Made by a program: the position numbers and the translations under genes. The notes below the pieces were generated by a model that did not search any database, had not been told where the DNA came from, and was given only the letters and a program-made list of their open reading frames with translations. This document shows positions 2,160 through 35,423 of a DNA stretch of 35,666 nucleotides, one piece after another (position 1 is the first letter of the stretch; every line of letters starts with the position of its first letter). The stretch covers positions 1 to 35,666 of the forward strand of contig PMFP01000095.1 of the NCBI GenBank assembly GCA_003155175.1, given 5' to 3'. Origin of the DNA: Vulcanimicrobiota bacterium (GTDB taxonomy: Bacteria; Vulcanimicrobiota; Vulcanimicrobiia; Vulcanimicrobiales; Vulcanimicrobiaceae).

Positions 2160-2329
2160 AGATTCGTCCTCTACGTCCGGGGTTTGGCACCGCGCGCCGT
2201 AGAGCCCGGGGGCTCAGCCGCATTAGATCCCGCCTTGATGTCGACGGGGCCTGGTCACCCATTGGCGTCTCTCGACGTTTCCGGGCAGCGGCCTGTTTTC
2301 GCGCGGACGCCTCGCCTAACGAGGATCCA
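2160..2329 (-). ncRNA. M-box (ykoK leader) Mg2+-sensing riboswitch aptamer
   Basis: Minus strand reads CCTCGTTAGGCGAGGCGTCC...CGCTGCCCGGAAACGTCGAGAGACGCCAATGGGTGACCAGG...GTCGACATCAAGGCGGGATCTAATGCGGCTGAGC...GTGCCAAACCCCGGACGTAGAGGACGA, matching the conserved M-box blocks GTTAGGYGAGGC, CTGCCC-GAAA-GTC-AAGACGCCAATGGGT, CGACATAAGGTG, TAATGCAGCTG and GTGCYAAA. Possible P1 TCCTC/GAGGA (2321-2325 with 2167-2171). Confidence 0.94.
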
Positions 2330-2354
2330 TAAACATGATACTCCCGCGTGTCAA
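2326..2354 (-). promoter_or_regulatory. Candidate sigma70-type promoter for the M-box transcript
   Basis: Minus strand TTGACA-N17-TATGGA (-35 at 2354-2349, -10 at 2331-2326); an alternative -10, TATCAT, lies at 2340-2335. Confidence 0.45.
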
Positions 2355-22119: not shown

Positions 22120-23841
22120 ATGAAGGTACGCGTGAACGGATCCCCGACCGGCTTGCGGGCGCTTGCCGCCATTGCGATCGCTTCGTTAGCGTTCGCCGGA
22201 TGCGGCGGGGGCGGCGGCTCCAGCCCCAACCCGAATCCGACGCCAACGCCCGCGTCTAGCGCGTTCGTCTGTCCCAGCAGCAACACGGCTGCGAGCGTCG
22301 CGCAAAGCGGCGCGACTCGTGAGGCCGCGTCCGTTCATCGCGGCGTAAGCTTTCTTCCGGCGGTCCGCGTCGCGCAGTCGAGTACCATCGCCGTCCTCTA
22401 CGACACGTCACGTCTGCAGCAAGTGCGCGACGGTCTTGCCTCGCGCGAGGCCGGCGCAGGCGCCCAGTTCGACCGCGAGATCGCGTTTGGCGCCATCCAC
22501 CAGACCGCTCGCATCCTGAAAGTGGATCCGGCTCGCGTCGCTTCGGTCGTCGCAACGCTCCGCGCGCAGCCCGGCGTGATCGAAGCGGGCCCCCTCGTGC
22601 GTAAGGCGCCGATGCACGTGAGCACGCCGTATTTCCCTAACGATCCATATTTTCAAGGGTTTGCCGCGCCCATCGCGCCCGCGGCGCCGACCAACAACCT
22701 TCCGCCGTACTACGAGTCGAGCAGCGTCCCCGGTCAGTGGGACATGCACGCGGTCAAGATGGAAGATGCGTGGGCGTACAGCCAGAGCAACAACGGCAGC
22801 GCGTTCGTCAATCCACACGCGCTCGGCGTGCCCGCGATCCGGTTGGCCGTGATCGACACCGGTGAAGACACGACGTCGCCGGAGTTGGCGGGCAAGGTCG
22901 TCCGCCAGCGCTGCTTCGTGACGAGCCCGGGCGGATCGCAGTCCACCTCGGGGTTTACCGTGGATCCGGACGGCCACGGCACCAACGTGACCGGTCTGGC
23001 CGCGTCGAACCTCGGCAACGGCACGGGCTTTGCAGGAACCGGCGGCCACATCTCGCTGATGCTCTATCGCGTCTTTCCGACGCCCGACGACAACTGCCTC
23101 AGTTCGAGCAGCGCCGGAAGCGATCCGCAATGCACGGCGGATTCGCAAGATATCGCCGACGCCCTCAACGACGCCGTGAGTAACGGCGCCAACGTCATCA
23201 ACCTGAGCCTGGGCGGCGGCGCGTGCCCCGACGACGCCGTCGAAGGGCCGGCGATCGCCAACGCCATCGCCCACAACGTCATCGTCGTCGCGGCGTCGGG
23301 GAACTCGGACGGTTCGACGCCAGTTAACGTGGTGCAGACGCCCGCGTGCGATCCCGGCGTGATCGCGGTCGGCGCCACCGGCCTCAACGACGCCGCGAGC
23401 CCGGTCGCCGAGCAAGTTGCCTCGTACTCGGAGTACGATTCGACCAATCCGGGCGGCTGGGGCATCGTTGCGCCGGGCGGGAACCCATCGAGCGACGTTG
23501 ATAACGACAATCTTCACTGGGTCGAGAACATCTCGACCAGCACTCCGGTTGACGCAAAGTACGCGCAGAGCATCGACTGCAGCGGCGACTATCCGTCGGG
23601 AACGGGAACTCCCGATTGCAAGATGCTCATCGCGGGCACATCCATGGCGACGCCGCACGTCGCGGGCGCGGCCGCGCTGGTCCTTTCGGTCAACTCCGCG
23701 CTCTACGGATCGCCGAGCGCGATGAAAACCCTGTTGTGCTCGACGGCCGACAAACTGCCCGGCCAAAGCGCGACCGAGGGCTGCGGGCGGCTCAACGTCT
23801 ACCGGGCCATGGCCAAAGCCGTCGGCGATCCCGTCCCGTAG
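22120..23841 (+). CDS. Lipid-anchored S8 (subtilisin-like) serine peptidase
   Basis: Lipobox FAGCGGGGG; catalytic AVIDTGEDTTSPEL (Asp), DGHGTNVTGLAAS (His), GTSMATPHVAGAAAL (Ser). Confidence 0.94.
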   Translation: MKVRVNGSPTGLRALAAIAIASLAFAGCGGGGGSSPNPNPTPTPASSAFVCPSSNTAASVAQSGATREAASVHRGVSFLPAVRVAQSSTIAVLYDTSRLQQVRDGLASREAGAGAQFDREIAFGAIHQTARILKVDPARVASVVATLRAQPGVIEAGPLVRKAPMHVSTPYFPNDPYFQGFAAPIAPAAPTNNLPPYYESSSVPGQWDMHAVKMEDAWAYSQSNNGSAFVNPHALGVPAIRLAVIDTGEDTTSPELAGKVVRQRCFVTSPGGSQSTSGFTVDPDGHGTNVTGLAASNLGNGTGFAGTGGHISLMLYRVFPTPDDNCLSSSSAGSDPQCTADSQDIADALNDAVSNGANVINLSLGGGACPDDAVEGPAIANAIAHNVIVVAASGNSDGSTPVNVVQTPACDPGVIAVGATGLNDAASPVAEQVASYSEYDSTNPGGWGIVAPGGNPSSDVDNDNLHWVENISTSTPVDAKYAQSIDCSGDYPSGTGTPDCKMLIAGTSMATPHVAGAAALVLSVNSALYGSPSAMKTLLCSTADKLPGQSATEGCGRLNVYRAMAKAVGDPVP

Positions 23842-23868: not shown

Positions 23869-24075
23869 GTGAAGATCCGCTTACCGTACGTCATCGGGGC
23901 GCTCTTGCTAGCCGGTTTCTTCGTCACGTCGTTTGCGGCTCGCCCCGGACAGCTCGCGGTGACGCGGCTCGTCCTATTGGTCGCGGCCATCGCCTTTCTC
24001 TTCGGCGGCCTCATCGGGCACATCAAAGACGTCAACCGGGAAAAGCCCAAGCCCGTAGCTCGGCGCGAGCGTTAG
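23869..24075 (+). CDS. Small two-TM membrane protein (68 aa), unknown function
   Basis: MKIRLPYVIGALLLAGFFVTSFAARPGQLAVTRLVLLVAAIAFLFGGLIGHIKDVNREKPKPVARRER. Confidence 0.6.
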   Translation: MKIRLPYVIGALLLAGFFVTSFAARPGQLAVTRLVLLVAAIAFLFGGLIGHIKDVNREKPKPVARRER

Positions 24076-25100
24076 TCGCCGGTGGAGTAGCCCGCAGCGG
24101 CCAGAACGCGCTGCGTTTCAACCGCTTCTTGGAACGTTGGGAGCTCGCTCGCGCCCGTTTCGATCTGCTTGATCCATTCGTCGTAAAGCTCGTACAGGAG
24201 CGGGACGTTTCCGCCCAGGCTCTCCAGTTTGGCGTACGGCGACGGCTTGCATTCGAGCTCGGACTGCTCGTCCTCGTCAACGACGAACAACGTCACGTCC
24301 ACGACGTCGGTTCCGCTCGCGACGGCCGTGCGGTTGCCGCCATGCACCGCGATCGTGGCCTGCTCGACGCCCGTCGTCCCGTCCACCGAGAGACGGCCGA
24401 CCAGACCGTGCCCGTAGTCCACGAGCGCGAACGCGCCGTCGTCGGCGTCCACCGTGAAGCTGCCGCGATCGTCGGTCCGCATGGGATTGGCGATGCGGGA
24501 GAAGCCGGTCGCATGCACCGGCGGACGCCCCGCGAGCCAATTGCACGTGTCGATGACGTGGGAGAGCAAGGCCCCGGAGATGCCGCCGCCCGACGATCGC
24601 TCGAAGAGCCAGCCCCGTTCGCGTTTCTCGGCGGGGGTAGTGAGATGCGTGAACTCGATCTCGCGCAACGGGTCGAGATGGCCGTTTGCGACCAGCTCCT
24701 TCATCGCCATTCGCTGTGGGATCCAGCGGAACTCGTGCGCGACGCCGCAGGCCGTTGCCGCGGCCTTCGACGCGTCGAGCATGCGCTCGGCCTGCGCGAC
24801 GTTGAGCGCGAACGGCTTTTCGCACAGCACGTGTTTGCCGGCAGCGAGGGCTGCCAGCACGTCGTCTTCGTGCGAGAACGGCGGCGACGCGACGACGACG
24901 GCATCGAGGTCGCATCCGGCAACCATCTGGGCGCAGGACGTGAACGCGTGCGGAATCCCGCGGGCGGCCGCAATGCCTTCAGCCGAATGCGGCGAGGCCA
25001 GTGCGACGACGTCGAAACGGGGGTGCGCGAGCAGGGCCGGCAGGTGCGCCTTCACGCCGAAGCCGCTGCCGACGATGCCTACGCGATAGGTTTCGCTCAA
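24072..25100 (-). CDS. Gfo/Idh/MocA family oxidoreductase (TTG start, TTGA overlap)
   Basis: YRVGIVGSGFGVKAHLPALLAHPRFDVVAL...DAVVVASPPFSHEDDVLAALAAGKHVLCEKPFALNVAQAERM. Confidence 0.93.
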   Translation of the reverse strand: MSETYRVGIVGSGFGVKAHLPALLAHPRFDVVALASPHSAEGIAAARGIPHAFTSCAQMVAGCDLDAVVVASPPFSHEDDVLAALAAGKHVLCEKPFALNVAQAERMLDASKAAATACGVAHEFRWIPQRMAMKELVANGHLDPLREIEFTHLTTPAEKRERGWLFERSSGGGISGALLSHVIDTCNWLAGRPPVHATGFSRIANPMRTDDRGSFTVDADDGAFALVDYGHGLVGRLSVDGTTGVEQATIAVHGGNRTAVASGTDVVDVTLFVVDEDEQSELECKPSPYAKLESLGGNVPLLYELYDEWIKQIETGASELPTFQEAVETQRVLAAAGYSTGD

Positions 25101-26383
25101 GGTGGCCCTCCAGTTTCGGCGATTGCGTTTTCCAACAAGTCGAGCGCGCGGTCGAGGTCGTCGCGCCCGATGACGAGCGGCGGCGTGACCGAGATGACGT
25201 TACCGTTGCGACCGGTTTGCAGCACGATGAGTCCGAGTCGCAGAGCGGCTTTGACCGCGGCGTCGGCTTGTGCCGCGTCGCGCAGTTCCACGCCCCACAT
25301 CAGTCCGCGCCCGCGCACGTCGCGCACGCCGTGCTTACCGAGAAACGCTTGGAGGCGCTCTTCGACGGCGGGTGCCAGTTCCCGCGCGCGCTCCGGCAAG
25401 CGCAGACGCTCGAGTTCGTCGATGGTTGCCAGCGCCGCCGCGCAGCCCATCGGATTGCCGAGGTACGTCGAGGTATGCAGCGCTTCGCCGCGCGAGACGG
25501 GCCAGGCGTCCATCACGTCGGCGCGCGCGGCGATCGCGCTGATCGGGAAGCCCGAACCCATGGCTTTTCCGATGCAGATAATGTCGGGCACGATGCCGTC
25601 GTGCATGCACGCGAACCACGAGCCGGTCCGGCCGAAGCCGGTATAGATTTCGTCAAAAATCAGCACTATGCCGAGCTCGTCGCAAATGGCTCGCAATCCC
25701 CGAAGATAGCCGCCGGGCGGAACCACGATGCCGCCGCGCGATTGGATCGGCTCGATGACGACGGCCGCGAGATCTCCGCGCGCGGCAAGGGCGCGCCTGA
25801 GCGCGGCGAGTTCGCGGGCAACGCCATCGCCGTCGGAATCGCCCGCGGGAAAGTCGAGCATCAGCGTCGTGGTGGAGAGCACGCCGGCAAACGGCGCGCG
25901 GAAGCGCTCGATGCCGCCGATCGTCAGCGCGCCGAACGAGAGGCCGTGGTAGGCGCCGCGGTACGACGCGAAGGCGGCCTTTCCGGTAGCGAGCATCGCG
26001 GTTTTCATGGCGGCCTCCACGGCCTCGGATCCGGTCGTCGCGAGGAAGATCTTGTTCAGGCCGGTAGGCAGGGCGTTCGCGAGACGCTCGAGCAGCCGCG
26101 CGCGAACGTGCGTCGGATGCACGTCGCCCATGCCGTGCATCAGCCGTTCCGCCTGTGTGTGGATGGCTTCGACGACCCGTGGGTTGGCGTGCCCCGCGTT
26201 GGCAACGCCGAATGCGGCCGTGAGATCGAGATAGCGGTTGCCGTCCACGTCCACAACGGTCGCGCCGGACGCCGACTCCCAGAACACCGGAAAATCCTCG
26301 CCCAAGTACGTGACGTTGCGCGATTCGAAACGCGCCAAATCGCCGCGCATCTCGGCGCTGCGCGGCCCCGGAATCTCGGTCAT
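25097..26383 (-). CDS. Class III PLP-dependent aminotransferase
   Basis: DVDGNRYLDLTAAFGVANAGHANPRVVEAI...TTGSEAVEAAMKTAM...YRGAYHGLSFGALTIGG...GIVLIFDEIYTGFGRTGSWFA...PDIICIGKAMGSGFPISAI (PLP lysine). Confidence 0.95.
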   Translation of the reverse strand: MTEIPGPRSAEMRGDLARFESRNVTYLGEDFPVFWESASGATVVDVDGNRYLDLTAAFGVANAGHANPRVVEAIHTQAERLMHGMGDVHPTHVRARLLERLANALPTGLNKIFLATTGSEAVEAAMKTAMLATGKAAFASYRGAYHGLSFGALTIGGIERFRAPFAGVLSTTTLMLDFPAGDSDGDGVARELAALRRALAARGDLAAVVIEPIQSRGGIVVPPGGYLRGLRAICDELGIVLIFDEIYTGFGRTGSWFACMHDGIVPDIICIGKAMGSGFPISAIAARADVMDAWPVSRGEALHTSTYLGNPMGCAAALATIDELERLRLPERARELAPAVEERLQAFLGKHGVRDVRGRGLMWGVELRDAAQADAAVKAALRLGLIVLQTGRNGNVISVTPPLVIGRDDLDRALDLLENAIAETGGPP

Positions 26384-27603
26384 GCTTCCGACGTCACCCA
26401 GCGTACGAATTCGGCGATGCGCGGGCGCGCGCCGTGATTGCCGCCGAGCGGAGGCCTCTGCAGCTCGCCGAATCGCGCGATGCGCGACGCGCCGGTCTCG
26501 AGCGCCATCGCATCGACGTCGTCGCGATTTCCGGCCAGGGCGATCGCCTCGATCGGCAAGCGGTGCGCGCGAACGTAGGCCAGCGCGTCGGCCGGTCCGT
26601 CCACGCAATGGATCGCAACGACGCGCGGAAGAAAGGAGGGGGGCTCGCTCGGCGGCGCGTCGAGCAACGCGAGGTACCCGGCCGATCCGCCGATGACGGC
26701 TCCGCGGCCTTCGGAAACGCGAAAGGCGGCCACGTTGCGGGCGTTCGCGACGCGAGCCTGCGCGCGCGCGTCGAGCGGGCCGGGGGGAAACTCGACGCTG
26801 GCGCGATCGAGAGCCGTGCGGAAGATCTCACCGAAGACCGCGGGCGCAATGGCGCCGCCACGCTCGAGAAAGAGCGCGTGCAGCGAAAGGCAGCCTTCGC
26901 CGTCGTAGAGCAGCATGTCGCGGGCCGCGCCGGCGGCGATGCGCGTGCAGGCCGCCGCGTCGGCAAGCGCTTCGCGCGCGACGTAGCCGATGCTGGCGGC
27001 CGGTCCAAACGCAACGAAGCGCGCTCGCGGCGCGGCTTGCGAGCGAATCTTGCGCAGCGAGACGTCGTCGCCGAACGCGACGACGGCGTCGAATGCCGCC
27101 AAGTCGCGCGCGTCGTTCTCGCCGCTCCACGCCTCGGCCACGGCCGCCGTGCCCAATTCCTCGAGTTCCTCGGCTGCGGTCTTTAAGAACGCGGCGACGA
27201 AATGGTCTTCGCGATCTTTCACCGCGACGTCGCATTTCGCGCACAGCGCGAAGAGCAGCGGCGGAATCGCGACGCCGATGGTAGTCCGGCTGGAGACGAC
27301 GCACACGCGCCCAACCGGAAGCGCGTGCAGCGCCGGCCGTCCCGCACGCTCCACCGCGCCGTCGAGGGCGGAGAGCGAACCGATCTCGTCGACGATCGCC
27401 GCTTCGAGCGCTGCGGCGCTCGCACTCTGAAAGAGCGCGTCGAGGGCGTACTCGACGACCGGCAGCGAATACCCCGTGCGCTCGCAGATGGCGCGCTGCG
27501 CGCGGACCCTCGGCGGAAAGTCCGCGTCGCACCACCGCTCGGACGCGTCGGCGAGCGCGCGCACGATTCTCCGGACGGGAACGCGCGCCAGCCGGGTGCT
27601 CAC
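26380..27603 (-). CDS. LuxC-like acyl-CoA/acyl-enzyme reductase (GTG start)
   Basis: VGRVCVVSSRTTIGVAIPPLLFALCAKCDVAVKDREDHFVAAFLKT...DMLLYDGEGCLSLHALFLERGG (candidate catalytic Cys). GTGA overlap with the upstream gene. Confidence 0.8.
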   Translation of the reverse strand: MSTRLARVPVRRIVRALADASERWCDADFPPRVRAQRAICERTGYSLPVVEYALDALFQSASAAALEAAIVDEIGSLSALDGAVERAGRPALHALPVGRVCVVSSRTTIGVAIPPLLFALCAKCDVAVKDREDHFVAAFLKTAAEELEELGTAAVAEAWSGENDARDLAAFDAVVAFGDDVSLRKIRSQAAPRARFVAFGPAASIGYVAREALADAAACTRIAAGAARDMLLYDGEGCLSLHALFLERGGAIAPAVFGEIFRTALDRASVEFPPGPLDARAQARVANARNVAAFRVSEGRGAVIGGSAGYLALLDAPPSEPPSFLPRVVAIHCVDGPADALAYVRAHRLPIEAIALAGNRDDVDAMALETGASRIARFGELQRPPLGGNHGARPRIAEFVRWVTSEA

Positions 27604-28709
27604 AGCGCGATGCCGCGCAAGGTTTCGGCGTCGAGCGAGCAGCCGCGCAGCGCCGCGCCCGCTTCGCGTCCCACCAGGACGATCGAACCGTCGCCATAGA
27701 CGGCGCCCAGATCCTCGGTCGCGACGGCCACGCACGACGAGCGATTCGCCAGATCCACGTGCACGAGCGCACCGACCGTTCCCGCCGGCAGCGTCGTGCC
27801 GGCGGCGCTCACGGCGCGCGAACGAAGCCATGGCGGCGCGACTTTTCGCCGCGGCGCGTCGCGCAGGCGCAGCGGGTCGTCGTAATACTGCGACGCCAAT
27901 TCGGTCATCCCGTATTCCGCGACGACGGCTTCGCGCGCGATGCCGAACCGGGAAGCGATGCGTTCGTACAGCTCGTCGCGCGAGACTACGCGCGCGCGTC
28001 CTTTGAAACCGCCGGTCTCCATCACGCGCGAACCGGTCGGCAGCGCCCAGCTTAAACCGCGCGCGTCCATCTCGTCGGTCACGTGGACGAGCGCAAACGC
28101 CGTCGCGGCAACGCAGACCGGCTCGCCCGCGGCGACGGCGGACCTGACGGCCGCGACGAAGTCGTCGAAGAGCAGCGATTCGGCGGTGACGAACCAGCCC
28201 GTTTCGCCCGTTCCGCGTTCGCGCGCGACGCGGTCCATCATGTAGCCCAGCGAGGATCCCGGACGCTCCGCGGGGTTCGGGACCAAGTTGAGATAGCGCA
28301 GGCGCGCGCCGTCACCGAGTACGAAGCGATCGAACGCGGCGATCAGCGACCGGTCGTAGAGCTCGGCGGTTTCCATAAAGTGAAGTCCGCCCGCACCGCC
28401 GGTCGTGCCGCTGGTCTCGAACGTCAACGCGGCGCGCGCCGGGTCGAACGTCGCCATGATCGCTTCCTTATACGCCTGTGCGGGCACCGCGGGAATCTGC
28501 TGCCAGGTCTCCGGCGGCTGGTCGGGCGCGTAGCCGAACGCCGCGCCGTAGCGTCCGTAAGGTTCGTTGTACCGGAGCTGATGAGCGCAGATTCGGCGCG
28601 CGAGGTCCCCGAACTCCGAATCGGCGAGTGCGCGCGCCCCGGCGCGCCATCGCTCGATCGTGCCGAGGATCTCCCGGTCGAGTTCGCCGGCCTCGGTAGC
28701 GTAGCTCAT
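27600..28709 (-). CDS. LuxE-like acyl-protein synthetase (acyl-adenylate forming)
   Basis: TFETSGTTGGAGGLHFMETAELYDRSL (AMP-binding loop), VVAEYGMTELASQYYDD, C-terminal RGCSLDAETLRGIAL with a Cys near the end. Confidence 0.85.
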   Translation of the reverse strand: MSYATEAGELDREILGTIERWRAGARALADSEFGDLARRICAHQLRYNEPYGRYGAAFGYAPDQPPETWQQIPAVPAQAYKEAIMATFDPARAALTFETSGTTGGAGGLHFMETAELYDRSLIAAFDRFVLGDGARLRYLNLVPNPAERPGSSLGYMMDRVARERGTGETGWFVTAESLLFDDFVAAVRSAVAAGEPVCVAATAFALVHVTDEMDARGLSWALPTGSRVMETGGFKGRARVVSRDELYERIASRFGIAREAVVAEYGMTELASQYYDDPLRLRDAPRRKVAPPWLRSRAVSAAGTTLPAGTVGALVHVDLANRSSCVAVATEDLGAVYGDGSIVLVGREAGAALRGCSLDAETLRGIAL

Positions 28710-28825
28710 CGAGCCAGGCGCACGAAGCTTGGACGGCCGGGCGAGGCGAACGGCGTTCTCCGCATGTCCGGGCCTTCTCCGCGCGAGTCCCGGTCCCCAG
28801 GTCAGCGTAAGCCGCGAGAGAAACC

Positions 28826-31950: not shown

Positions 31951-33297
31951 TTGAACGTTCGAATCGCTTCGCTCGCGGGCTTGCTGCTCGTCGTCGCTCT
32001 GGCTGCCTGCAACGGCACGCCGCCGTCCGGCGGCATGATCCCCACGCCGGCGCCCGTCATCGTTCCGACGCCAACGGTTGGGCCCGGCAGCACGTTTGCC
32101 TATTCCGGTTCGCTGACGCAGACGAACACGTACGCATACCCGCAACCGTCGCCGCTTCCCTCGACCGTGAATACGGCTGCGGTCACGGAGAACGTCGTCG
32201 TCTCCACGTCGCCCGCGCCGCCGCCGCTGAGCGCTCCCGCTTCGGCGCTGGACTATAACGCGAGCGAGACCGACGCCTATGGGCTCCAGAGCGTCGTGAC
32301 GACGACCGACAGCTGGCAAGGTAAGGCAGCGGCCGGATCGGCCGTCAATCTGGTTCAGTATGCAACCAATGTCGTGACGAACGCCAACACGTCCACCGCT
32401 TCAACCATCGCGACGTCGTATTCGACGCCGCAGATCGTCGGTCAGACGCCGGCAACCGCGGGCGCGAGCTGGAAAAACGTCAACGGCGGTACCGTGACCG
32501 AAAACGACGCCGACGGAACGACCGACGTCACCAAGCGAAATGCGAACGGCACCTACACCGACACGCAGACGATCGCAAGCACGCCGCAGACGCTGACGAT
32601 CGCAACAAAGGCTGACGGAAGCGGATCGTACGGCGGCACCGCGCTGTCGAGCTACGGCATTCAAGAATTCCAGATGCTCGCGCCGGCGTCCGGAAAGATC
32701 ACCGTTCAGATCCTCCCGACGGGCGGCGGTGCACCCACCGTCGTTGCGACGCCGAAGGCTTGGTTCTCGGCGGTGACTCCCCCGTATTCCGACGTCACGA
32801 ACGTCGCAACCAACGTCACGTTTCCGGCTGCCTGCAACGTCCCGCCGCAGTTCGGGACCAGCGGCTCGTCGCTGACGCGACAGATCGCGTCGTACGATCC
32901 GGTGCTCGGCTTCACCGACGCGCAAACGATTACCACGTACGTTGGAGGCTACGGCCCGGTTTGCATCGTGCTGAGCGATCTGCAGACGACGTACTACGAC
33001 TATCTCAACGATACGCTCAAGGCGTGGCAAAACTTCGCCGACTTCGAAGGCACGCCGCTGGCGACGCAGACCATCGCCGAAACGCTGACGCTGCAGAACG
33101 CGACGTCCGCCTCGGCGTCTCGCCGTTCGTCCGCCGCGATCGTCGCGGGCGCTCAAGGGCTCTCGCCGTCGAGCGTGTCGTTCGCGACGGCGCAGTTCGA
33201 GGCGCGCGTGCAGCACGAACGCACGGTCCGCAGAAAAGCCGCGATCGCGAGACTGATCCGATTCATGCAACACCGTACCGGGGGTAACGTCCGATGA
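31951..33297 (+). CDS. Lipoprotein of unknown function (TTG start)
   Basis: LNVRIASLAGLLLVVALAACNGTPP lipobox; GGAAGGA SD upstream; coupled by ATGA to the S53 peptidase gene. Confidence 0.7.
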   Translation: MNVRIASLAGLLLVVALAACNGTPPSGGMIPTPAPVIVPTPTVGPGSTFAYSGSLTQTNTYAYPQPSPLPSTVNTAAVTENVVVSTSPAPPPLSAPASALDYNASETDAYGLQSVVTTTDSWQGKAAAGSAVNLVQYATNVVTNANTSTASTIATSYSTPQIVGQTPATAGASWKNVNGGTVTENDADGTTDVTKRNANGTYTDTQTIASTPQTLTIATKADGSGSYGGTALSSYGIQEFQMLAPASGKITVQILPTGGGAPTVVATPKAWFSAVTPPYSDVTNVATNVTFPAACNVPPQFGTSGSSLTRQIASYDPVLGFTDAQTITTYVGGYGPVCIVLSDLQTTYYDYLNDTLKAWQNFADFEGTPLATQTIAETLTLQNATSASASRRSSAAIVAGAQGLSPSSVSFATAQFEARVQHERTVRRKAAIARLIRFMQHRTGGNVR

Positions 33298-35423
33298 ACG
33301 CGAGAGACTTTCGTCCGGCCGCGGCGCTTGCGCTTGCGGCTGCCTTCGTGACCGGGTGCGGCGGCGGCAGCCATGGCGGCGCGCTCCCCACCGATCCGGG
33401 CGCGGCGGCCGGCATGTCTCAGGCGCAGGCGCAGACGGCACTCTCGACGTATGCGGGTCCCTCGACGCTCGCGAACTTTACGTGGGGTAAAGAGACGCTT
33501 CGAACCGCCACGTACGTCGGTCCGGTGCACGGCGACATGGGCATGTCGGTTTCGGTTGCGCTGAAACTGCAGAACGAGCGCGGTCTGATGCAGTACGCGC
33601 AAGAGGCGAGCTCGCCCAAGTCGGCATTCTACCGCAAGTTCCTCACGCCGGCTGAGATCGGCGCGCGTTACGGCGCGACCGCGAGCGACGTGGCCGCGAC
33701 CGCGAAGTACTTCAACGGCTACCACATCTCCGTAGGAACTTGGCCGCAGCATCTCACGCTCACGCTCGCCGGCAGACTAACGTCGTTCGAGAAGGCATTC
33801 GGTACGACCATCGGCTGGTGGCGCGCCGGGAAGACGACGTTCCTGGCGCCGGTTCAGGCCCCGCACGTCGCCGTCGCTCTGCCCATCGCGGGCGTGGTCG
33901 GGCTGGTGCAGCCGCACTTCATGCATCCGTACATCATCCGAATGTCGCGCGGAAACACGATTGGCTATTCCCCGCAGATGCTGGCCAACGGCTTCGACTA
34001 CTCCGGTGCGTATAGCAAAGGCTACAACGGGACCGGCATCAACATCGGCATCATCGGAACCGGGCCGATCGACACGTCCGCCAACGGAGACGTGCCCACC
34101 CTGTCCAAGCTGTTCAAGGCGCGCGTCGCGACCGTGACGGTCGCGCAGGTGCGCGCGCAACCCGCCAGCGGCCAAAACAACAACACCGGGACGGGTGCCT
34201 TCGACCCGAATCCGGGTGGCCTGGCATCGCCGCCACCGGTGACGGATACGTGTAGCTTGCCGCCTTTCCCGACGCCTCCCGATTACACCACGTGCAATCC
34301 CGAGGATGGCGAAGCGCAGCTGGATACCGAGCAGCAAGCCAGCCTCGCGCCTGGCGCAAACGTGCTGTTCTACTTCGCGTACAATCCGGCGATTTGCGTC
34401 AACACGACCACCGGAAACGAAACGGCACCGCCGTGCGGCGCGGGCGAGGTCACCTATCCGCTGATCGGTATCCAGATTGCGGACGACGAGATTCAGCAAG
34501 CGATCGCCGACAACAAGGTGGACGCGGTCTCGCTCAGCTACGGGCTGGGCGAGAACGGCGGCTGCGGCTATTACTATTCGTGTTCGGGCAGCGGTCAGGG
34601 CACCGGCATCGGCCCCGACGAATTCGCGGCGCTAGCCGCCGAAGGCATCGCGGTGTTCGCGTCTTCCGGGGACACCGGGAACCAGTCGTGTTTCGACAAC
34701 TTCGGCAATCCACTGCCGACGCCGTGCGTTTCGTACCCGGCCTCGGACCCGTCGGTTGTCGGCGTCGGCGGCGTGAACGCGCCCATGGACACGACCGGCA
34801 AACTGCTCGGCCAAATCGCGGCCTGGGCCTACCAGTCCACGCAAGGCGGGAGCGGCAACTTCAACAACGACGTCGGCTCGGGCGGGGGAGTGTCGCAAGT
34901 CTTCCCGACCCCGGTTTGGCAGCAGGGCGTCACGACGCCGGCGGGCAGCAATCCGGCGAGCCCGCAGCTTAACGGCTATCGCGGCGTTCCCGACATCGCA
35001 CTGATGGCGGATCCCTTCACGGGTCCGGCCCTCGTCTTTAACTCGGCTTTTTCCGATGGAGGCGTCGGGCCGTCCGGCGGGACGTCGGCAGCCGCGCCCG
35101 AGTCCGCCGCGGAGTGGGCGCTGGTCGAACAGGCCTGCAAAGCCACGCCGTCCTGCGCGACCGCGAGCGGCGGCCACCCGGAACGCTTGGGCAATCCGAA
35201 CGGCATCTTTTACAAGATCTACGCCGGTTCGCTCAACGGTTTGAGCTACAACGACGTGTTCTACGACGTTCTCTACGGCCAAAACCAGGCCAACTCCGGG
35301 CCCGGAGCGCCGCCGATCACCGGTTGCTGCACCTCCGGAAAAGGCTACGATCTGGTCACCGGGCTGGGCGTTCCGTTCGGCGGTCACCTCGTCCAGGCGA
35401 TCACGGGCCAAGTGACGCCTTAG
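33294..35423 (+). CDS. S53 family (sedolisin/kumamolisin-like) peptidase with N-terminal pro-domain, predicted lipoprotein
   Basis: Lipobox FVTGCGGGS; pro-domain [29 protein letters not shown]; catalytic EAQLDTEQ (Glu/Asp), FASSGDTG (Asp), [13 protein letters not shown] (Ser). Confidence 0.93.

Follow-up and report, generated by a model that had tools for sequence, protein, structure and literature searches.

In the synthesis of queuosine, a common tRNA modification, QueE makes 7-carboxy-7-deazaguanine (CDG), a carboxylic acid, and 7-aminomethyl-7-deazaguanine (preQ1) is its aminomethyl counterpart. QueD, QueE, QueC and QueF have been described as the set required for de novo preQ1 (PMC11130926), and the presence of QueC and QueF is used to class organisms as queuosine (Q) makers or salvagers (PMC6593275, PMC11130926). 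QueC and QueF convert CDG to preQ1 through the nitrile preQ0, flanked by QueD, QueE, Tgt and QueA (PMC11130926, PMC13329287). Here we analyse an operon in a 35,666-nucleotide stretch of DNA from a Vulcanimicrobiota bacterium (contig PMFP01000095.1; the window), which encodes a LuxE-family ligase, a LuxC-family thioester reductase, a class-III aminotransferase (AT) and a Gfo/Idh/MocA oxidoreductase. Sequence comparisons indicate that LuxE, LuxC and AT very probably constitute a QueC- and QueF-independent route from CDG, the QueE product, to preQ1, the Tgt substrate. Such a route would share its start, its end and its flanking enzymes with the known one, but would use non-homologous enzymes, with an acyl-enzyme and an aldehyde in place of an amide and a nitrile.

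The chemistry has a formal analogy in ArgB–ArgC–ArgD and LysZ–LysY–LysJ, where a carboxylate is activated, reduced to a semialdehyde and transaminated by a class-III enzyme, although these act on amino acid substrates and use an acyl phosphate rather than acyl-AMP and acyl-Cys. Acids are already known to be turned into amines by adenylation, reduction of the thioester and class-III transamination in the PtTamA/PtTamH system of tambjamine synthesis (PMC9594044), and PigE of prodigiosin synthesis likewise goes from thioester through aldehyde to amine (PMC8341465). TamH and PigE are natural reductase–aminotransferase fusions (PMC9594044, PMC8341465), as is one relative of the window proteins (L053; Table 1), whereas in the window the two activities are encoded by separate genes. 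Both systems differ from ours in acting on acyl carrier protein (ACP) or coenzyme A (CoA) thioesters of fatty acids in secondary metabolism, and the PigE reductase is acyl-ACP-reductase-like and not described as LuxC. The luminescence LuxE–LuxC fatty acid reductase (PDB 7xc6) is homologous to the window proteins and has the same catalytic cysteines, so that ATP activation and thioester reduction are expected here too; it differs in its substrate, a fatty acid rather than the aromatic deazaguanine acid proposed here, and in lacking an AT partner, while the window operon contains neither luxAB nor luxD. What would be new is a variant of an established pathway that draws on known enzyme families and has an unreported intermediate; we found it nowhere in the literature searched. 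No paper linking LuxE/LuxC or the aminotransferase to queuosine was found in a search whose scope left out preprints and most subscription journals, and a prior description is possible.

Results

The operon proteins and their catalytic residues

The window comes from contig 13 of a 2.47-Mb metagenome-assembled genome (MAG) of 82% completeness. The original prediction had described a chain of four minus-strand genes joined by 4-nt overlaps, and direct reading confirmed it (GTGA at 27600-27603, ATGA at 26380-26383 and TTGA at 25097-25100). LuxC starts at GTG 27603, overlapping the LuxE stop by 4 nt, while its longest open reading frame (ORF) would start at ATG 27831. A divergent leuC begins 116 bp upstream of luxE, and the region between them has no Rfam match. 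The family labels given earlier also hold, as all four Pfam scores exceed the curated cut-offs: 46 bits for LuxE against PF04443 (cut-off 24.9), 120.6 for LuxC against PF05893 (21), 356.8 for AT against PF00202 (30.5) and 91.6 for Gfo/Idh against PF01408 (24). The window LuxE is the only PF04443 match in its genome.

In alignments of 28–31 relatives per protein, the residues expected for catalysis were retained, as the original prediction required of LuxE and LuxC. Cys357 of LuxE, in the C-terminal acyl-accepting GCS motif, is invariant in 28 sequences and aligns with the KGCS of 7xc6 LuxE; LuxC Cys238 (GEGCLS) and AT Lys273 are likewise invariant. The alignments of LuxE and LuxC to the solved 7xc6 complex cover the greater part of both proteins. 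Scores against the long-chain NCBIfam equivalogs were very low, at 31.4 bits for LuxE (NF052244, cut-off 550) and 35.3 bits for LuxC (NF052251, cut-off 750). The AlphaFold (AF2) model of LuxE (pLDDT 89.3) has an adenylating-enzyme fold, with PaaK and ClxA, adenylating enzymes of aromatic acids, as best PDB matches; these agree, as weak evidence, with a heteroaromatic substrate.

In GabT-type aminotransferases, the Arg of the V-I-R-x-x-P-P-L motif binds the substrate carboxylate. Across 20 AT members from several phyla, this Arg, present in the GabT, acetylornithine and putrescine enzymes (GabT/AcOAT/PatA), was replaced by Ser, Ala, Gly or Thr in 19, and a GDV motif was widely common. We take Arg loss and the GDV motif to mark a separate AT subfamily, and the replacement would fit an acceptor without a carboxylate. 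One further candidate (L139), whose AT has kept the Arg and shares just 38% identity, was not counted as a firm locus.

Conservation within the phylum

The GTDB family (f1), order (f2) and class (f3) of the window genome together comprise 117 genomes (f1–f3). LuxC-like matches occurred in 122 of the 149 genomes of the phylum, and in the neighbourhoods of 40 genomes the LuxE–LuxC–AT block recurred across f1, f2 and f3. Because it is syntenic across family, order and class, this grouping is far beyond chance. LuxE lies apart from LuxC–AT in some f1 genomes, yet is retained, and in L053, a family member with no adjacent Gfo, LuxC and AT are fused in a single frame of 892 residues.

The fourth gene behaves differently. 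It follows AT in most f1 genomes; the f2 versions are only 25–29% alike, and in f3 an MFS transporter takes its place. No copy adjoins the core in L042, in L053, in the class relatives L064, L065 and L071, or in other phyla. Thus, of the four-gene co-occurrence that had been predicted, LuxE–LuxC–AT is found in relatives and in other phyla, while Gfo/Idh does not belong to the core. The gene is conserved in the family, but no finding gave it a step on the substrate or product, and Gfo/Idh could be either an extra of this lineage or a mere passenger.

Linkage to queuosine genes in other phyla

GTDB contigs scanned with a LuxE profile yielded 80 loci, spread over many phyla, of which 30 were of the type associated with thiamin pyrophosphate (TPP) riboswitches (TPP-type, see below) and 50 were not; many of the latter carry AT–LuxE–LuxC or LuxE–LuxC. 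When all loci were searched for QueD and QueE with tblastn, a queD or queE gene within 4.5 kb and on the same strand was found at 10 of the 50 non-TPP loci, compared with 0 of the 30 TPP-type loci. The arrangement is QueE–AT–LuxE–LuxC on a Verrucomicrobiota contig (L112), where QueE scores 303.7 bits with TIGR04349 (cut-off 300). QueD stands right after LuxC (LuxE–LuxC–QueD) at seven Verrucomicrobiota loci (L128-L131, L137, L140, L142), and QueE right before LuxE (QueE–LuxE–LuxC) at two Gemmatimonadota loci (L148, L151). Several of these loci are mutually related, and at least three arrangements are independent.

An AT ortholog (44–53% identity) was encoded elsewhere in the genome in eleven LuxE–LuxC cases without an adjacent AT, compared with matches of only 37–41% in TPP-type controls. 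In G167 this ortholog adjoins QueE, and a contig of G164 breaks off after QueE and the start of an AT. Physical linkage to que genes therefore occurs in independent lineages. In f3, QueE and LuxC lie 14–26 kb apart on one contig in six genomes. No preQ1 riboswitch was found at gathering threshold upstream of the queuosine-type (Q-type) loci.

Complementarity with QueC and QueF

Should the trio stand in for QueC and QueF, its carriers would be expected to have the rest of the pathway and to lack those two. The window genome encodes QueD, assigned by sequence motif and homology, directly before and abutting QueE. Its QueE is below trusted cut-offs (best 120.9 bits), but is full-length and has the SVQGEG and CxxxCxxC motifs. 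QueA exceeds both NCBIfam equivalog cut-offs (378 against 324 and 314 against 267), and Tgt scores 505 bits. A profile search found no canonical QueC in this genome (best 24.7 bits, QueC-family noise).

The same pattern extends through f1–f3, where LuxE was present in 111 and QueA in 115 of the 117 genomes and relatives also have QueE. QueF was found in none of the 117, the window genome included, and no QueC match exceeded 103 bits. The pattern includes a one-contig genome of 99% completeness (G118). In contrast, phylum members outside f1–f3 had true QueC (168–248 bits) in 10 of 11 QueA-positive genomes, and the families that make Q without LuxE carry true QueC. LuxE of this clade and canonical QueC are thus mutually exclusive. 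Two of the strongest QueC-like types within f1–f3 (G129, G027) score 83 and 72 bits against the TIGR00364 equivalog cut-off of 150.3, and were rejected as canonical QueC. The G129 protein is a fusion behind a Cys-rich N-terminal part, and the G027 gene has no other que genes around it. Such sub-cut-off proteins may belong to the QueC family but have taken on a new role, for example as QatC-like proteins.

Among 16 genomes of other phyla with AT–LuxE–LuxC, none had QueC above 124 bits or QueF above 32 bits, in contrast to TPP-type genomes, which retained QueC in 4/5 and QueF in 5/5. QueE in the 16 was strong (242–303 bits) in six, with the rest weak, of other subtypes, or unresolved.

The TPP-type sister operons

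In a LuxE tree of 91 rows, the TPP-linked proteins formed one clade (support 99/97), with the AT- and que-linked proteins outside it. A clade with 99/94 support joined the window LuxE, which groups with Candidatus Eremiobacterota (Vulcanimicrobiota) records, to the f1 and f2 proteins and to the two from Gemmatimonadota that are encoded beside QueE; deeper forks were not firmly resolved. The nearest plasmid LuxE proteins (31–38% identity) are encoded in LuxE–LuxC–SDR operons, several of which also have a transporter of ABC or nucleobase type. We guessed that such operons salvage a thiamin precursor and therefore predicted TPP riboswitches, which were then found upstream of 10 of the 14 loci scanned (4/5 plasmid, 6/9 chromosomal). 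These operons were seen in Azospirillum, Pantoea, Bosea, Bacillus and Levilactobacillus, many with ABC or NCS2-type transporters, and their proteins are currently labelled 'long-chain fatty acid--CoA ligase' or 'bioluminescence'. The probable role of these operons is thiamin salvage, in which a pyrimidine carboxylate would be reduced to hydroxymethylpyrimidine. No paper on LuxE and thiamin was found within the same search scope.

This is the closest LuxE sister clade to the window operon, with the same two reduction enzymes and presumably a heteroaromatic acid as substrate. It differs in having an SDR rather than AT, from which an alcohol product is expected, in its transporters and in its TPP control. 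Since TPP riboswitches precede LuxE–LuxC–SDR operons, the substrates handled within this LuxE branch probably include small heteroaromatic acids as well as fatty acids.

Discussion

A proposed route from CDG to preQ1

We assign the trio to the step from CDG to preQ1 because conversion of a carboxylate to an aldehyde and then to an amine is exactly its chemistry. Substrate, formyl intermediate, cofactor, amino donor and every catalytic step are inferred, and the sequence would be as follows. LuxE would activate the CDG carboxylate with ATP to CDG-AMP, from which a CDG thioester would form on Cys357. The acyl group would then move to Cys238 of LuxC, and reduction with NAD(P)H would release 7-formyl-7-deazaguanine. 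The aminotransferase, using pyridoxal phosphate (PLP), would convert this aldehyde to preQ1 by transamination, and Tgt followed by QueA would yield epoxyqueuosine-tRNA. The carboxylate–aldehyde–amine sequence put forward in the original prediction fits all of the evidence, including the L053 fusion, while its guess at the product does not: context and gene complementarity point to preQ1 made from CDG rather than to an amino-lipid, amino-sugar or amino-aldehyde metabolite. We are confident, if slightly less so than for the assignment itself, that this nitrile-free route serves whole Eremiobacterota/Vulcanimicrobiota lineages together with members of Verrucomicrobiota, Gemmatimonadota, Myxococcota and Omnitrophota, and probably Sumerlaeota.

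The trio could instead take CDG or a near relative to a different 7-deazaguanine (a secondary metabolite, a DNA base, an alcohol or an aldehyde), with the preQ1 for Tgt salvaged from outside. Linkage to queD and queE would fit this as well, as it does not fix the exact product, and transporters for Q precursors are known and diverse (PMC11130926). However, a salvager would have no need for QueD and QueE, canonical QueC is absent in the carrier lineages examined, and the near-universal trio in f1–f3 is accompanied by QueA, which is specific for preQ1-tRNA, and in the window genome also by Tgt, as fits a core tRNA role. We therefore consider this explanation unlikely.

Very unlikely, in our view, is the conversion of a fatty acid to an alkyl-amine for an amino-lipid, as first suggested, in the manner of TamA/TamH. 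LuxE and LuxC of luminous bacteria do act on long-chain fatty acids, and PtTamH with PtTamA turns fatty acids into amines (PMC9594044), but the inspected neighbourhoods of the trio showed no genes for lipids, ACP or natural products, its recurrent neighbours are queD and queE, and the long-chain equivalog scores are negligible; we rejected a fatty-amine product on these grounds. The sister operons raise the further idea that a pyrimidine carboxylate is reduced and aminated to aminomethylpyrimidine for thiamin salvage. TPP riboswitches do precede those operons, but none was found near the window operon or 20 other AT/Q-type loci, and the TPP-type LuxE clade occurs with SDR and transporters, never with AT or que genes. 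Lacking an accompanying riboswitch, SDR or transporter, AT-type operons are extremely unlikely to act in this way, and this candidate too was rejected.

Several observations weigh against synthesis of preQ1 from CDG by the trio. Within the lineage of the window genome no que gene adjoins the operon, and neighbouring genes are uninformative at 22 of the 80 LuxE loci. The conserved Gfo/Idh gene is not accounted for by the route. Gene absence in the window genome alone is weak evidence at the completeness of this MAG, and three of the other-phylum genomes retain QueC-like proteins of 94–123 bits. One genome (G024) has QueE with neither LuxE nor QueA. Six genomes of the phylum (G001-G003, G005, G011, G012; families f4, f5, f9, f10) have true QueC and QueA, but neither QueF nor LuxE of this clade, so that QueF absence alone is not diagnostic; by gene content these six appear to be another gap in preQ1 synthesis.

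If the trio does make preQ1, it would be a second, non-homologous route, and many genomes in several phyla would have to be re-classified: carriers now scored as queuosine salvagers, with QueC and QueF missing, would be makers. The route predicts a new metabolite, 7-formyl-7-deazaguanine, would explain luminescence-type genes in non-luminous bacteria, and would give a function to proteins labelled 'long-chain fatty acid--CoA ligase' or 'acyl-CoA reductase (bioluminescence)'. It would also provide a small-acid-to-amine enzyme set for biocatalysis, and is directly testable in E. coli.

Feature coordinates and neighbouring genes

Table 1. Positions of the operon genes and of other features mentioned in the text.
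Feature	Sequence	Position	Strand	Basis
LuxE-family ligase (proposed CDG-AMP ligase / acyl-enzyme carrier, acceptor Cys357)	window	27600..28709	-	PF04443, Cys357, AF2 model
LuxC-family thioester reductase (proposed acyl-CDG to 7-formyl-7-deazaguanine, Cys238)	window	26380..27603	-	PF05893, Cys238, 7xc6 alignment
Class-III aminotransferase (AT; proposed 7-formyl-7-deazaguanine to preQ1, PLP Lys273)	window	25097..26383	-	PF00202, Lys273
Gfo/Idh/MocA oxidoreductase, lineage-specific operon member	window	24072..25100	-	PF01408
Intergenic region luxE / divergent leuC, 116 bp; presumed operon promoter region	window	28710..28825	.	coordinates
QueD, window genome	L180	5029-5337		motif, homology
QueE, window genome	L180	5321-5899		SVQGEG and CxxxCxxC motifs
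LuxC–AT fusion	L053	7555-10233	-	single frame
QueC-like gene	L188	8455-9666	-	below QueC equivalog cut-off
QueC-like gene	L189	7776-8393	+	below QueC equivalog cut-off
TPP-riboswitch LuxE–LuxC–SDR loci	L072, L073, L075, L076, L083, L085, L088, L092, L094, L127			TPP riboswitch
M-box (ykoK) magnesium riboswitch	window	2162-2330	-	130 bits
Predicted secreted serine peptidase, subtilisin-like	window	22120-23841	+	motif GTSMATPHVAG
Predicted secreted serine peptidase, sedolisin-like	window	33294-35423	+	motif GGTSAAAPE

In five relatives (L036, L044, L045, L047, L050), genes that by sequence appearance encode an O-acetylhomoserine sulfhydrylase-like (MetY-like) and a CoA-binding-protein-like product lie between leuC and luxE. 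They are missing from this position in the window and were set aside as pathway parts, other lineages being without them.

Other families of the phylum (L059-L063, L066-L070) carry a distant LuxE and a LuxC of about 880 residues fused to a PaaK/CapK-like adenylating domain, and in L059 LuxE is also part of the LuxC–PaaK/CapK-like fusion. The LuxC ORFs of about 880 residues in f13-f16 had been candidates for LuxC–AT fusions, but on reading they resemble LuxC–PaaK/CapK fusions, with a distant LuxE, and were assigned to a different system; by sequence, these genes appear to be another LuxE–LuxC pathway.

Elsewhere in the window there is a magnesium riboswitch, and the two predicted peptidases flank the operon region, with homologues at similar places in relatives.

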